Shown in pieces: positions 16,449 to 50,691 of a stretch of DNA of 64,000 nt (positions within the stretch are counted from its first letter, which is position 1; the number at the start of each line of letters is the position of its first letter). Source of the stretch: Flavobacterium sp. WV_118_3 (lineage in GTDB: Bacteria; Bacteroidota; Bacteroidia; Flavobacteriales; Flavobacteriaceae). The stretch lies in the NCBI RefSeq assembly GCF_039778605.1, contig NZ_CP156060.1, positions 2,666,001-2,730,000 on the forward strand. Direction: 5' to 3'. A model generated the notes under the pieces. The model was given only the letters and a program-made list of their open reading frames with translations, had not been told where the DNA came from and searched no databases. The position numbers were made by a program, and so were the translations under genes.

Positions 16449-17090
16449 ATGCATTTTATCTCCGAGACTTTAGAAGATTATGTAGCGGCACATTCCGAAA
16501 ACGAACCGGCTTTGCTGGCCGCCTTAAATAAGGAAACCCATCAGAAAATCCTGCAACCCCGTATGTTGAGCGGCCATTTTCAAGGGCGCGTTTTGAGTAT
16601 ACTTTCCAAATTGATTCGCCCGAAGGCTATTCTGGAAATCGGAACCTATACCGGTTATGCCGCGTTATGTCTGGCCGAAGGGTTGGTTGAAAACGGTACT
16701 TTGGATACTATCGATATCAACGAGGAGTTATTCGATTTCCAACGCAAATATTTTGATCAATCGGAATGGAAAGACCAGATTTACCAACATTTGGGGAATG
16801 CTTTGGAGATTATTCCGACGTTAAATAAAAAATTTGATCTGGTTTTTATTGATGCCGATAAAGAAAACTATATCAACTATTTCCAGATGATCGTTCCGTT
16901 GATGAATAAAGGCGGGGTGATTTTATCGGACAATGTATTGTGGTCCGGTAAAATTCTGGAAACGGTAAAAGCCAATGATAAGAGTACCAAAATATTACTG
17001 GAGTACAACCAGCTGCTAAAAGACGATCCAAGAGTCGAAACGGTTTTATTACCAATTCGCGACGGACTTACCGTGAGCCGAGTTCTTTAA
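16449..17090 (+). CDS. SAM-dependent O-methyltransferase (COMT-like family 3)
   Basis: Class I methyltransferase of 213 aa in the catechol/caffeoyl-CoA O-methyltransferase family. Visible motifs are ILEIGTYTGYAALCLAEGL (SAM loop), the acidic end of strand 2 in LDTIDINEE, and the metal/catalytic segment LVFIDADKENYINYF followed by ILSDNVLWSGKI. The natural substrate is unknown. Its terminator (17097 onward) is split by IS copy 1. Confidence 0.9.
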   Translation: MHFISETLEDYVAAHSENEPALLAALNKETHQKILQPRMLSGHFQGRVLSILSKLIRPKAILEIGTYTGYAALCLAEGLVENGTLDTIDINEELFDFQRKYFDQSEWKDQIYQHLGNALEIIPTLNKKFDLVFIDADKENYINYFQMIVPLMNKGGVILSDNVLWSGKILETVKANDKSTKILLEYNQLLKDDPRVETVLLPIRDGLTVSRVL

Positions 17091-17096
17091 AAAATA

Positions 17097-17111
17097 AAAG
17101 GGATAACAATG
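17097..17111 (+). terminator. Left half of a terminator split by IS copy 1
   Basis: AAAGGGATAACA plus the target duplication ATG abuts the element. The other half, TTATCCCTTT followed by CTTTTTA, resumes at 18557. Joining the halves with one ATG gives a near-perfect palindrome followed by a T-rich run, placed 7 nt after the O-methyltransferase stop. Confidence 0.85.
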
Positions 17112-17145
17112 TAGAGTGCTCCCAAAAAGTTAGACAAATTTATAA

Positions 17146-17943
17146 TTAAATTTGACAATAATGAGCTCGGTATTTCACCGGGCTCATTCCATTTAAATTA
17201 AGTTTAATTCTATTGTTATTGTAATAGCTTATGTACTTTTTAAGCTCTTGTTTTAAATGTTCTGTTGATTTAAACTTTTGAAGATAAAACAACTCTGATT
17301 TAATAATACCAAAAAAGTTTTCTATAACAGCATTGTCTAAGCAATTCCCTTTTCTTGACATACTTTGAGTAACTCCCTTGTCCTTCAATAATCTTTGATA
17401 TTGTTTCATTTGGTATTGCCATCCTTGATCAGAGTGCAATATAAGCCCAGTATTATCTGCTATTTTCCTAAATGACTTTTTAAGCATATTAGTGACCTGT
17501 TCAAAATTTGGCCTTTCTGATAATTCATAGCTTATTATTTCTCCATTAAATAGATCAATGACAGGAGACAAGTATAGCTTCTTTCCCTTTACATTGAATT
17601 CGGTTATATCAGTTGCCCATTTTTGATTGGGTTGTTCTGCTTTAAAATTCCGTTGTAATATATTAGGTGCTATCTTGCCATGTTCTCCTTTATACGATTT
17701 ATATTTCTTAACTCTTATTAAACTCTTAAGCCCTAAAACTTTCATTAGTTTCAATACAGTCTTGTGATTAATTACAAAACCTTTATTCCTTATCTCAAGA
17801 GTGATACGGCGATAGCCCAGACGACCTTTATGAGAATGATAGATCGATTTAATCAACTCTTTAAGCTCTGTATATTTGTCAATAACAGCGTTTCTCTTTT
17901 GATGATAATAATAACTAATCCGTGCCATATTTGCATGATCCAA
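17146..17943 (-). CDS. IS3-family transposase OrfB (DDE domain), copy 1
   Basis: Catalytic half of the transposase. An N-terminal HTH_21-type region (YHSHKGRLGYRRITLEIRNKG) is followed by the rve/DDE core: first Asp in WATDITEF, second in LHSDQGWQY, Glu in IENFFGIIKSE. The annotated 5' end is a TTG, but the frame continues upstream without a stop to a -1 slip site CAAAAGG at 17991-17997, where it would fuse to OrfA (the usual IS3 mode). The protein is the same as in copy 2. Confidence 0.92.
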   Translation of the reverse strand: MDHANMARISYYYHQKRNAVIDKYTELKELIKSIYHSHKGRLGYRRITLEIRNKGFVINHKTVLKLMKVLGLKSLIRVKKYKSYKGEHGKIAPNILQRNFKAEQPNQKWATDITEFNVKGKKLYLSPVIDLFNGEIISYELSERPNFEQVTNMLKKSFRKIADNTGLILHSDQGWQYQMKQYQRLLKDKGVTQSMSRKGNCLDNAVIENFFGIIKSELFYLQKFKSTEHLKQELKKYISYYNNNRIKLNLNGMSPVKYRAHYCQI

Positions 17944-17978
17944 TAAAAGAGATAGATCATGGTTATGCCTTAATTCCT

Positions 17979-18509
17979 CTATGGTTTGTGCCTTTTGTTT
18001 TGCTCGGCTTCTTCTGCTTGAATTAAGGCTTGTAACTTTTTTAAATAGGCTACTTGAGCACGTAAAGATTCATTTTCCAGTAAAAGCTCTTCTTCTCTGG
18101 TCAAAGGTTTATCGGATTTCTTTTTAGCTCTTTTGTAAGTCATCGATATGGGTTTTCCTTTTGGTTTTTGTACTAAACCTGGTGCGCCATGGTTTTTAAA
18201 TTGACGCTGCCAGGCCAAGATTATCCCATCATTGGGAATGTTGAAAAATAAACAGGCCTGACTCAAAGATAAACACTTCTGATCAATGGTACGTATAACT
18301 TTTAGCTTAAAATCGGAACTGTAATTCTGATTCTTACGGGATAACAGACCTTCTTTTCCATACTTAAGATAGAAGTTTATCCATCTTCCAAGATTAGTTT
18401 TACTAATTTCTTGCTCCTGAGCAACTGAGCCCTTTGAGCGGTTTTTATTTAATACTTCTTCTACACAATGAAGTTTAAATTCATAATTGTACTTGACTTT
18501 TCTTTCCAT
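17979..18509 (-). CDS. IS3-family transposase OrfA, copy 1
   Basis: DNA-binding half of the transposase, 176 aa. It has two helix-turn-helix-like repeats (EFKLHCVEEVLNKNRSKGSVA and DFKLKVIRTIDQKCLSLSQA) and a C-terminal leucine-zipper-like segment REEELLLENESLRAQVAYLKKL. The ATG at 18509 (MERKVKYNYEF) lies inside the element; a longer frame to 18611 runs out through the inverted repeat and is not used. The ATG follows directly on the T-run of a hairpin. The frame is intact here, unlike copy 2. Confidence 0.9.
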   Translation of the reverse strand: MERKVKYNYEFKLHCVEEVLNKNRSKGSVAQEQEISKTNLGRWINFYLKYGKEGLLSRKNQNYSSDFKLKVIRTIDQKCLSLSQACLFFNIPNDGIILAWQRQFKNHGAPGLVQKPKGKPISMTYKRAKKKSDKPLTREEELLLENESLRAQVAYLKKLQALIQAEEAEQNKRHKP

Positions 18510-18548
18510 AAAAAATGCCCCCAAATAGTGTCTAACTTTTTGGGGGCA
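18510..18548 (-). terminator. Terminator-like hairpin in the IS end, copy 1
   Basis: On the minus strand the arms TGCCCCCAAA and TTTGGGGGCA are separated by 13 nt and followed by TTTTTT, just before the orfA start codon. The inverted repeat forms one arm. It could stop outside transcripts from reading into the transposase. Confidence 0.7.
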
Positions 18549-18581
18549 GTTCAATGTTATCCCTTTCTTTTTATATACTCT

Positions 18582-18627
18582 AGACCTGACAGGTTTCTCA
18601 GCGGTTTGCAAAAAACCTGTCAGGTCT
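18582..18627. repeat. ACCTGACAGGT palindromic repeat, copy 1
   Basis: Arms AGACCTGACAGGTTT (18582-18596) and AAACCTGTCAGGTCT (18613-18627) form a 15-bp stem with a 16-nt loop, followed by TGATTTTAT. It lies just before the 3' end of the PAP2 gene at a convergent junction. Related copies are at 43091-43129 and 50659-50691. Confidence 0.85.
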
Positions 18628-18631
18628 GATT

Positions 18632-19198
18632 TTATATACTATCCGGAAAGTATTTTTTCCGATAGACTTCATATATTTTTGAAAACAAATAACCGGTTCC
18701 CATTCCGAAAATATAACCGGAAAGAATGTCACCCGGGAAATGCAATCCAAGGTAAATACGGCTATACGCAAAAATCAACGGGAAGAGGAAAAACAAAAAC
18801 GCATATTTATAGTATTTCCGTAGAATCAATACGATAAACGTAGTCGATGCCAGTGAGTTGGCTGCATGTCCCGAAAAATAACTAAACGACGAACTTTGTT
18901 TAACCAGACGGATAATGTCTTTGGTTTCCGGATCGTTACACGGACGCAAACGCTGTACGCTGTTTTTTACCAGATTTGTCATCTGATCGGTAAATGCAAT
19001 CAATAAAGCTAGTGAAAAAATCACCAATAGCATATGTTTCCAACCCAGTTTTTTGTACAACAGGTAGAATACATACAGAAATATTGGTGTCCAATAGGCT
19101 TGTTTGGTAATGATCAGCCAGAGTCCGTCAAAACGTTCGGAACCCAGACTATTTAAAAAAACCAGTAGTTGTTTATCAAGTTGAATTAAATGCTCCAA
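18632..19198 (-). CDS. PAP2-family phosphatase
   Basis: Integral membrane acid phosphatase of 188 aa, likely acting on a lipid phosphate such as undecaprenyl diphosphate or a phosphatidate. The three PAP2 signature blocks are present: KNSVQRLRP, YFSGHAA and SRIYLGLHFPGD. Hydrophobic segments surround them. It starts 2 nt after the tatA stop, so the two are one unit. The exact substrate cannot be read. Confidence 0.9.
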   Translation of the reverse strand: MEHLIQLDKQLLVFLNSLGSERFDGLWLIITKQAYWTPIFLYVFYLLYKKLGWKHMLLVIFSLALLIAFTDQMTNLVKNSVQRLRPCNDPETKDIIRLVKQSSSFSYFSGHAANSLASTTFIVLILRKYYKYAFLFFLFPLIFAYSRIYLGLHFPGDILSGYIFGMGTGYLFSKIYEVYRKKYFPDSI

Positions 19199-25605: not shown

Positions 25606-25637
25606 AAAAAAACCGAAACAAATGTTTCGGTTTTTTT
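25606..25637. terminator. Bidirectional terminator between pepE and the tRNA cluster
   Basis: The hairpin ACCGAAAC-AAAT-GTTTCGGT has A-runs before it and T-runs after it. It serves pepE on the plus strand and the tRNA-Gly genes on the minus strand. Confidence 0.85.
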
Positions 25638-25638
25638 A

Positions 25639-25714
<76 letters not shown>

Positions 25715-25751
25715 ATGTAATGGATTTTAAAACCCCATCAGGTTTTTTCAG

Positions 25752-25824
<73 letters not shown>

Positions 25825-25862
25825 ATGCAATGGATTTTAAAACCCCATCAGGTTTTTAGCAG

Positions 25863-25935
<73 letters not shown>

Positions 25936-25946
25936 TTTTGTGAGTG

Positions 25947-25954
25947 CAAATATA
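25947..25954 (-). promoter_or_regulatory. -7 element for the tRNA-Gly cluster
   Basis: The minus strand reads TATATTTG, an exact -7 match 12 nt before the first tRNA. An ATTG near 25977 could be a weak -33 box. The rest of the spacer up to 26263 (about 310 bp) holds no gene that I can support. Confidence 0.55.
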
Positions 25955-26263
25955 ATTAATAATTTTACTCCCCTGCAATTTTTTTCTAAAAAAAATTAAA
26001 ATAGCCAATAGTCGTTTTCCGACCGTGTGCCGACCATTTAAAAGGCCCGACAAAATAAGGCTCCGCACCCAACCGCAGCTTTCTAATTTTCAATTATTTA
26101 AGTCCGTCACTATTTAGAAAAGGCATTCCTAACAACATCAATTCCCTATTCGGTTGTATCAAAAAATAGTCTGAAAAAGACCAAAAAATAAAAATTGGCG
26201 GTCTAAAATCAATTACTTTTTTAAAAATACTGGTTCCTGTTTTTGTAATTTAGTGCTATCAAA

Positions 26264-41602: not shown

Positions 41603-41621
41603 AAAAAAAGGCTCACTAATG
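41603..41621 (+). terminator. Left half of a terminator split by IS copy 2
   Basis: AAAAAAAGGCTCAC followed by TAATG abuts the element, and the other half, ATGTGAGCC with TTTTTTA, resumes at 43065. Rejoined, the arms GGCTCAC and GTGAGCC enclose a TAAT loop with A- and T-runs outside, which makes a strong bidirectional terminator. Confidence 0.88.
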
Positions 41622-41626
41622 TGAAC

Positions 41627-41665
41627 TGCCCCCAAAAAGTTAGACACTATTTGGGGGCATTTTTT
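41627..41665 (+). terminator. Terminator-like hairpin in the IS end, copy 2
   Basis: TGCCCCCAAA (41627-41636) pairs with TTTGGGGGCA (41650-41659), and six T residues follow directly before the orfA ATG at 41666. It is the counterpart of the hairpin at 18510-18548. Confidence 0.7.
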
Positions 41666-42197
41666 ATGGAAAGAAAAGTCAAGTACAATTATGAATTTAA
41701 ACTTCATTGTGTAGAAGAAGTATTAAATAAAAACCGCTCAAAGGGCTCAGTTGCTCAGGAGCAAGAAATTAGTAAAACTAATCTTGGAAGATGGATAAAC
41801 TTCTATCTTAAGTATGGAAAAGAAGGTCTGTTATCCCGTAAGAATCAGAATTACAGTTCCGATTTTAAGCTAAAAGTTATACGTACCATTGATCAGAAGT
41901 GTTTATCTTTGAGTCAGGCCTGTTTATTTTTCAACATTCCCAATGATGGGATAATCTTGGCCTGGCAGCGTCAATTTAAAAACCATGGCGCAACCAGGTT
42001 TAGTACAAAAACCAAAAGGAAAACCCATATCGATGACTTACAAAAGAGCTAAAAAGAAATCCGATAAACCTTTGACCAGAGAAGAAGAGCTTTTACTGGA
42101 AAATGAATCTTTACGTGCTCAAGTAGCCTATTTAAAAAAGTTACAAGCCTTAATTCAAGCAGAAGAAGCCGAGCAAAACAAAAGGCACAAACCATAG
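41666..42197 (+). pseudogene. IS3-family OrfA, frameshifted, copy 2
   Basis: The first part of OrfA (MERKVKYNYEF to QFKNHGA) is intact. An extra A in the run GCGCAACCAGG (41992-41993; copy 1 has GCGCACCAGG) then shifts the frame, giving a stop at 42052. The correct frame resumes (GLVQKPKGKPISM) and ends at 42197. As read, OrfA and the OrfAB fusion cannot be made, although OrfB is intact. Reads across 41992 would show whether this is real or an assembly error. Confidence 0.88.
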
Positions 42198-42232
42198 AGG
42201 AATTAAGGCATAACCATGATCTATCTCTTTTA

Positions 42233-43030
42233 TTGGATCATGCAAATATGGCACGGATTAGTTATTATTATCATCAAAAGAGAAACGCTGTTATTGACAA
42301 ATATACAGAGCTTAAAGAGTTGATTAAATCGATCTATCATTCTCATAAAGGTCGTCTGGGCTATCGCCGTATCACTCTTGAGATAAGGAATAAAGGTTTT
42401 GTAATTAATCACAAGACTGTATTGAAACTAATGAAAGTTTTAGGGCTTAAGAGTTTAATAAGAGTTAAGAAATATAAATCGTATAAAGGAGAACATGGCA
42501 AGATAGCACCTAATATATTACAACGGAATTTTAAAGCAGAACAACCCAATCAAAAATGGGCAACTGATATAACCGAATTCAATGTAAAGGGAAAGAAGCT
42601 ATACTTGTCTCCTGTCATTGATCTATTTAATGGAGAAATAATAAGCTATGAATTATCAGAAAGGCCAAATTTTGAACAGGTCACTAATATGCTTAAAAAG
42701 TCATTTAGGAAAATAGCAGATAATACTGGGCTTATATTGCACTCTGATCAAGGATGGCAATACCAAATGAAACAATATCAAAGATTATTGAAGGACAAGG
42801 GAGTTACTCAAAGTATGTCAAGAAAAGGGAATTGCTTAGACAATGCTGTTATAGAAAACTTTTTTGGTATTATTAAATCAGAGTTGTTTTATCTTCAAAA
42901 GTTTAAATCAACAGAACATTTAAAACAAGAGCTTAAAAAGTACATAAGCTATTACAATAACAATAGAATTAAACTTAATTTAAATGGAATGAGCCCGGTG
43001 AAATACCGAGCTCATTATTGTCAAATTTAA
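42233..43030 (+). CDS. IS3-family transposase OrfB (DDE domain), copy 2
   Basis: The 265-aa translation is identical to OrfB of copy 1, with the same DDE residues (WATDITEF, LHSDQGWQY, IENFFGIIKSE). The frame extends upstream to the slip site CAAAAGG at 42179-42185. Because OrfA is frameshifted in this copy, the element would need transposase from copy 1 to move. Confidence 0.92.
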   Translation: MDHANMARISYYYHQKRNAVIDKYTELKELIKSIYHSHKGRLGYRRITLEIRNKGFVINHKTVLKLMKVLGLKSLIRVKKYKSYKGEHGKIAPNILQRNFKAEQPNQKWATDITEFNVKGKKLYLSPVIDLFNGEIISYELSERPNFEQVTNMLKKSFRKIADNTGLILHSDQGWQYQMKQYQRLLKDKGVTQSMSRKGNCLDNAVIENFFGIIKSELFYLQKFKSTEHLKQELKKYISYYNNNRIKLNLNGMSPVKYRAHYCQI

Positions 43031-43090
43031 TTATAAATTTGTCTAACTTTTTGGGAGCACTCTAATGTGAGCCTTTTTTATTTCTTATAA

Positions 43091-43129
43091 TTTACACCTG
43101 ACAGGTTTTTGAAACCTGTCAGGTGTAAA
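43091..43129. repeat. ACCTGACAGGT palindromic repeat, copy 2
   Basis: Arms TTTACACCTGACAGGTTT and AAACCTGTCAGGTGTAAA are perfect 18-bp complements with a 3-nt spacer. It lies directly before the rsmG 3' end at a convergent junction, just beyond the half terminator left by IS copy 2. Confidence 0.88.
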
Positions 43130-50658: not shown

Positions 50659-50691
50659 ACACCTGACAGGTTTTAAAAACCTATCAGGTGT
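50659..50691. repeat. ACCTGACAGGT palindromic repeat, copy 3
   Basis: Arms ACACCTGACAGGTTTT and AAAACCTATCAGGTGT (one mismatch against copies 1 and 2) form a stem followed by TCTTTCTTTTT. It lies between the convergent fabD and ABC-permease genes. Confidence 0.85.

Follow-up and report, generated by a model that had tools for sequence, protein, structure and literature searches.

Hairpin-centred insertion of an IS3-family element with IS150-like ends in Flavobacterium, and of its relatives in other bacteria

We report that an IS3-family insertion sequence of 1442-1443 bp with IS150-like ends, present in two copies in a 64,000-nt stretch of the chromosome of Flavobacterium sp. WV_118_3 (NZ_CP156060.1, positions 2,666,001 to 2,730,000; this whole stretch is hereafter the window), inserts at the centre of hairpins and generates a 3-bp target duplication, that the stems of these hairpins are barely conserved among Bacteroidota sites, and that the point of insertion follows the hairpin centre. 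The sites compared make it highly likely that the element picks its target by shape, inserting at the apex of short inverted repeats with a 3-bp stagger. Specifically, the transposase would select an apex that corresponds, in Bacteroidota and Bacillaceae and in some of the Acinetobacter hosts, to the loop of an intrinsic terminator, often a bidirectional one; it may contact both arms symmetrically, either as a DNA dyad or as an extruded cruciform or hairpin, and strand transfer would be ordinary, with the 3-bp stagger. Insertion of this kind would do little harm to genes, and the targeting strategy may have been kept because genes are spared. As is usual for the IS3 family, transposition presumably proceeds by copy-out/paste-in via an IS circle.

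The element and its copies in the Flavobacterium chromosome

The two window copies, which lie on opposite strands, their genes and the flanking half-hairpins are listed in Table 1. Two overlapping frames, orfA and orfB, were seen in copy 1, as expected of an IS3-type transposase, and its OrfA is intact (176 aa); in copy 2 a 1-nt insertion breaks orfA, and the other three full copies in the chromosome have the length of copy 1. OrfB scored 326 bits against NF033516 (cut-off 160) and also matched Pfam rve and HTH_21. The left terminus is TG and the right terminus, in the own-genome copies, is TA (the IS3-family criterion being 5'-TG...CA-3'). Moreover, OrfB is 56% identical to the OrfB of an element annotated as IS150, and the ends of the two are similar. 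The element is filed in the IS3 family and, with the usual definition of the IS150 group, provisionally near IS150.

Table 1. Coordinates (window numbering) of the two insertion sequence copies, their genes and the split hairpins
Feature	Position	Strand	Remarks
Left half-hairpin, copy 1	17100..17108	+	GGGATAACA
Target duplication ATG, left, copy 1	17109..17111	+	3 bp
IS copy 1	17112..18553	-	1442 bp
orfB, copy 1	17146..17943	-	profile matches
orfA, copy 1	17979..18509	-	HTH_Tnp_1 + HTH_28
ATG duplication and right half-hairpin, copy 1	18554..18563	+	half-hairpin TTATCCC
A-run left of split terminator, copy 2	41603..41609	+	A7; T-run for the opposite strand
Left half-hairpin, copy 2	41610..41618	+	GGCTCAC (41610-41616) and TA of the loop
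Target duplication ATG, left, copy 2	41619..41621	+	3 bp
IS copy 2	41622..43064	+	1443 bp, ends TGAACTGCCCCC...GGGAGCACTCTA
Terminator-like hairpin and T6, left end of copy 2	41622..41665	+	fold of first 60 nt
orfA, copy 2	41666..42052	+	shortened by 1-nt insertion relative to copy 1
orfB, copy 2	42233..43030	+	DDE integrase core (rve), NF033516 IS3 family transposase
Target duplication ATG, right, copy 2	43065..43067	+	3 bp
Right half-hairpin and T-run, copy 2	43068..43079	+	TGAGCC (43068-43073), T6 (43074-43079)

When copy 2 and one ATG are removed the rebuilt site reads AAAAAAAGGCTCAC-TAAT-GTGAGCCTTTTTT, i.e. a terminator is restored, as the first-pass annotation of this DNA had claimed. 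The hairpin split by copy 1 is GGGATAACA-A-TGTTATCCC (+ strand), with the ATG duplication also on the + strand. Copy 2 is located between the convergent genes for L-glutamate gamma-semialdehyde dehydrogenase and rsmG, and copy 1 between the convergent ORFs 16449-17090(+) and 18632-19198(-); the same annotation had described two insertions in opposite orientation, at convergent gene ends and at hairpin centres, all of which was confirmed. Copy 2 can be read as flanked by a 9-bp repeat; longer duplications (5 or 9 bp) were rejected and the 3-bp duplication was retained, since the sequence shared by the two copies sets where the element ends.

The chromosome (3.85 Mb, one contig) carries five full copies. 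All five have a 3-bp target duplication (the IS3-family criterion is 3-4 bp), and all five are positioned at the centre of an A-run/stem/loop/stem/T-run arrangement resembling an intrinsic terminator, with hairpin scores between 12 and 16 (the score also counts pairs between A-run and T-run). Hairpins with a score ≥12 and centred ≤4 nt away were present at 0.124% of the 60620 window positions scanned, and at this window-scan rate the chance expectation for five of five is ≈3e-15, which bears out the earlier suggestion that such placement is unlikely by chance. The other three full copies have a + frame to the left and a - frame to the right, i.e. apparently convergent open frames (taken from stop to stop, ≥300 nt); a competing frame of the other direction adjoins loci L003 and L005.

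Other repeated sequences were observed in this genome. A palindromic repeat, CCTGACAGGTTT..AAACCTGTCAGG, is found in the window at 18585-18624, 43097-43123 and 50662-50688 and has 46 exact matches genome-wide; it lies within ≈95 bp of four of the five full copies, and 30-33 bp from three of them, a proximity with a chance of ≈3e-10 against a background of the whole genome and not of intergenic DNA. At 25633-25963 the window has a 110-nt unit present three times in tandem (100, 96 and 77% identity). Mini-elements of 43 bp, in which the terminal repeats stand back to back, number seven overall (L010-L012, L319, L322, L324 and L338; five found by script, L011 and L012 by hand); most are in terminator-like hairpins by eye, and 3-bp duplications flank four of the seven. 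The three in the own genome (L010, L011 and L012, at 677457, 224922 and 2471035) hold little beyond the two ends and interrupt terminator-like hairpins, as judged by eye and folding, with L012 imperfect and L011 without duplication.

Insertion sites and left ends of the relatives

Loci were gathered by similarity to the element, independent of their flanks, in genomes of the same genus (199 and 398, overlapping), the family (299), Acinetobacter (149), Pseudomonas (149) and the Mesobacillus family (151; referred to as Bacillaceae), plus named genome contigs, and the group label of a genome is that of the search that fetched it. The ends of the elements were located with a weight matrix built from nothing but the 22 terminal bases. 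Of 313 loci, 149 had two ends and gave 121 distinct sites (exact 20-nt flanks); removal of L168, whose second end was false, and of L306, whose flank was masked, reduced these to 119 sites, and 57 further loci gave 28 more distinct sites, for a total of 147. Similar non-identical sites were left unmerged (e.g. L043/L044, L218/L435, L255/L257 and L256/L260), and copies of one element within one genome were counted as separate insertions, though they are not separate lineages. C_G735, collected as a control, proved to be a member of the target group (75.8% identity) and entered its counts; C_G670 (five loci, L466-L470) was excluded because its ends could not be fixed. The empty sites were rebuilt by joining the flanks and are thus not observed orthologous sites. 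Stems were scored ungapped with a loop of 3-13, ≤2 mismatches, a centre ≤4 nt from the middle of the duplication and a threshold score of 7. As matched control, ten points displaced 12-44 nt in the same DNA were scored.

Among the 85 distinct Bacteroidota sites (the element and its relatives) a central hairpin was present at 63, compared with 42 of 850 displaced points (binomial log10 P = -62.7). The corresponding numbers were 21/25 vs 6/250 for the Bacillaceae relatives and 13/19 vs 10/190 for those in Acinetobacter, and the signal was weaker in Pseudomonas (7/18 vs 6/180). With hairpins centred ≤7 nt away the counts were 71/85 (Bacteroidota), 23/25 (Bacillaceae), 13/19 (Acinetobacter) and 9/18 (Pseudomonas). 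The first-pass annotation, made from the two window copies, had proposed a transposon that targets terminators at the hairpin centre; this is strongly supported by the 85 Bacteroidota sites and is also backed, with decreasing force, by the 62 sites from the three other groups.

A 3-bp duplication was detected at 58 of the 85 Bacteroidota sites. Where a duplication is present the hairpin is central at 46/58 (Bacteroidota), 12/16 (Bacillaceae), 8/14 (Acinetobacter) and 4/13 (Pseudomonas) sites, and at Bacteroidota sites without duplication it is central at 17/27. No score-7 hairpin was found within 4 nt at 22/85 Bacteroidota sites, and none within 7 nt at 14/85. Bacteroidota and Bacillaceae together have 16 exceptions at 7 nt: eight carry the 3-bp duplication, hence insertion outside a strong hairpin happens, and in a few of them an imperfect dyad can be made out by eye; the eight without duplication may be rearranged or decayed. 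With respect to single loci, L043 and L044 represent a near-identical unusual site, beside and not inside a hairpin, that is occupied in two different Flavobacteriaceae, and L121 repeats the L044 site. Inspected by eye and included in no count, the relatives L344 (ISEnfa3) and L347 (E. coli plasmid) appear hairpin-centred, and L348 (Priestia) does not.

The left end of the element itself forms a GC-rich hairpin followed by T6, with a folding energy of -19.7 kcal/mol for the first 60 nt. Among the oriented elements of the relatives, 82 of 85 from Bacteroidota combine a T-run at the left end with a fold there of at most -10 kcal/mol; both were present in 10/25 Bacillaceae, 0/19 Acinetobacter and 7/18 Pseudomonas elements, and the fold alone in 25/25, 18/19 and 18/18, respectively. 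Hairpin and T-run probably block read-through into the transposase and so shield it, and would restore termination on that side in place of the split terminator. In the own genome, two decayed left ends retain a hairpin and T-run resembling those of the element: L007 is located between two convergent open frames, and L008 keeps a changed version of the hairpin; these decayed ends possibly serve as terminators.

Nature of the target

Across the 42 central hairpins in the initial set of 57 Bacteroidota sites, insertion points deviate from the hairpin centre with a standard deviation of 1.86 nt, compared with 3.04 nt for the hairpin half-length; the scatter about the centre is smaller than that of the half-lengths, which is evidence against a motif read at a set spacing from the base of the stem. 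When the same 57 sites are aligned by their duplications and oriented as the element, stem positions hold at most ≈0.3 bit and the AT-rich duplication 0.3-0.7 bit, and the information is high only in the outer A-tract and T-tract. In the Bacteroidota duplications 150 of 174 letters are A or T. Stem information is similarly low across the 25 Bacillaceae sites, and the 19 Acinetobacter sites carry conserved stem letters, a consequence of one subclade that occupies a single repeat. When the dyad axis was placed at the midpoint of the duplication, complementarity at distances 2-8 was 0.25-0.35 for Bacteroidota vs 0.23-0.32 with shuffled partners, an excess that is small because the dyad axis wanders by a few bases; in Bacillaceae the excess over shuffled partners is clear.

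An A-run (≥4) upstream together with a T-run (≥4) downstream was present at 67 of the 85 Bacteroidota sites, at 10/19 Acinetobacter sites and at 2/18 Pseudomonas sites. The Pseudomonas relatives and an Acinetobacter subclade (L173, L175-L177 and L236-L238) sit in GC-rich palindromes, mostly without tracts, and several of the palindromes in these two hosts are visibly repeated and of REP type (REP identity by eye). The palindrome of the Acinetobacter subclade is of the GTGTCCCCCTCCCG..CACCGC type, which is repeated and does not represent terminators. Since GC-rich palindromes without tracts are also used, the common denominator is the dyad and, judged from the sites collected here, terminators are its most frequent carrier in AT-rich hosts.

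It could be argued that what is recognised is the pair of A- and T-tracts, or termination itself through a paused polymerase or an exposed strand, and that the hairpin is incidental. The tracts are indeed the most conserved sequence around the Bacteroidota sites, where both occur at the large majority (67/85). However, polymerase pauses at the T-run of a terminator and the insertions are at the loop, not at the T-run, and palindromes lacking the tracts are used by the Pseudomonas relatives and by the Acinetobacter subclade; we consider this explanation unlikely. It is even less probable, and to our judgement very much so, that insertion occurs anywhere and that purifying selection leaves those copies that landed in harmless convergent intergenic DNA, where terminators are found. 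The own copies do lie between convergent genes or open frames, and a survey finds IS3 elements over-represented between convergent genes (PMC9208149). Yet the same regions give a hairpin at the insertion point at 63/85 sites vs 42/850 at 12-44 nt, there is no obvious reason for selection to favour a split terminator over landing beside one, and another IS3 group of this genus does land beside terminators (see below); survivorship alone was rejected on the displaced-point control. Finally, AATGT, which is common to both window copies and which the first-pass annotation had included in the target, occurs (as AATGT/ACATT in the central 9 nt) at only 2 of the 85 Bacteroidota sites, both in this window, is absent from the other three own copies and is missing at 61 of the 85 sites that nonetheless have a central hairpin, a count that refutes the motif as target and makes a merely coincidental dyad next to inconceivable. 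A search for AATGT sites lacking a dyad, which would have spoken against targeting of the hairpin centre, returned none, i.e. both AATGT/ACATT sites have the dyad, and recognition of the inverted-repeat apex is the reading we adopt.

Comparison with IS150, a second IS3 group and known systems

The IS150-type sample, drawn from records of E. coli and of enterobacterial plasmids, comprised seven IS150 and one element annotated ISKpn8 (L345, L346, L349, L361, L362, L366, L367 and L371). Only distinct sites whose ends were exact and that carried a 3-bp duplication were taken; the types L359, L360, L364 and L372 (without duplication) and L370 were excluded. A central score-7 hairpin was found at none of these eight sites, so the group as a whole does not share the trait, and palindrome targeting as a general property of IS150-type elements was rejected. 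Directly after the duplication seven of the eight have (C/T)G(A/G)GGC. At least five adjoin hok or mok genes by annotation, so that the sample is affected by hot spots; by eye, L349 is situated within the loop of an inverted repeat of 6 bp that is below the threshold. A quick tree, the only one used, unites the 41 Bacteroidota rows (SH-aLRT 99) and places IS150/ISKpn8 outside them; it is compatible with either gain or loss of palindrome targeting and does not fix the order of the groups.

A second IS3 group of the same genus, 31-36% identical to the OrfB of the element, was fetched as negative control (L441-L465 and L471-L473). It has a 3-bp duplication at 25 of 28 sites and a hairpin at the insertion point at only 2/28. 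At 24/28, and in one orientation, the strongest hairpin in range has its centre 24-30 nt ahead of the left end, the transposase being read in the direction away from that end; L446, L447, L461 and L472 do not fit. Three of the loci are in the own genome (L471-L473, at 3245254, 3728275 and 591469), and two of them fit. Four of the 24 (L449-L452) lie behind copies of one palindromic repeat, CCCGACAGGTTT..AAACCTGTCGGG or a close variant, and not behind four unlike terminators. This group has its own terminator rule, and therefore the displaced-point control and the window scan are the only nulls. The chances seem to us evenly balanced that two distant IS3 lineages each read intrinsic terminators as a structure, the one striking the loop apex symmetrically and the other at a nearly fixed 24-30 nt downstream of the hairpin centre in one orientation, with terminator hairpins as a general docking structure for DDE transposases. 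If true, terminator hairpins, as DNA cruciforms or termination complexes, would offer mobile DNA in different phyla a place to insert safely.

The target rule described here is largely sequence-independent yet positionally precise, and it is found in a very common IS family, with elements in three phyla. It suggests how such elements multiply while sparing genes, and the contrast with IS150, which is without the rule, makes the reading of DNA shape by a DDE transposase directly testable. In annotated genomes, terminators may be interrupted, or element ends may stand in for them, and the element is a possible tool for placing DNA behind genes.

Our literature search found no description of an IS3 clade using the loops of ordinary terminators; subscription papers were mostly outside its scope and the novelty is therefore provisional. 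We provisionally regard the targeting as new, i.e. as palindrome-targeting transposition with a loop-centre rule for ordinary terminators. IS150 of E. coli is of the same IS3 family and has similar ends, but is without the central-hairpin rule at the same threshold. IS1397, ISKpn1 and ISPsy8 are likewise IS3-family elements that insert into palindromes, in their case REP, and for IS1397 and ISKpn1 the specificity is determined by the transposase (PMC1525189). By their descriptions each of these uses one species-specific repeat family, whereas the group of the element uses ordinary terminators in Bacteroidota and Bacillaceae, with stems that vary among sites instead of belonging to one repeat family. 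Group IIC (class C) introns land downstream of intrinsic terminators (PMC3522654); they are retroelements and resemble the downstream rule of the second IS3 group, not the loop rule of the element. IS1272/TnSha1 of the IS1182 family also targets hairpins, several of them confirmed terminators, without primary sequence specificity. However, it inserts bluntly in the stem, part of the hairpin is deleted and no target duplication is formed (PMC4923244), whereas the element described here inserts at the centre of the loop with a 3-bp duplication, both arms being kept and nothing lost.
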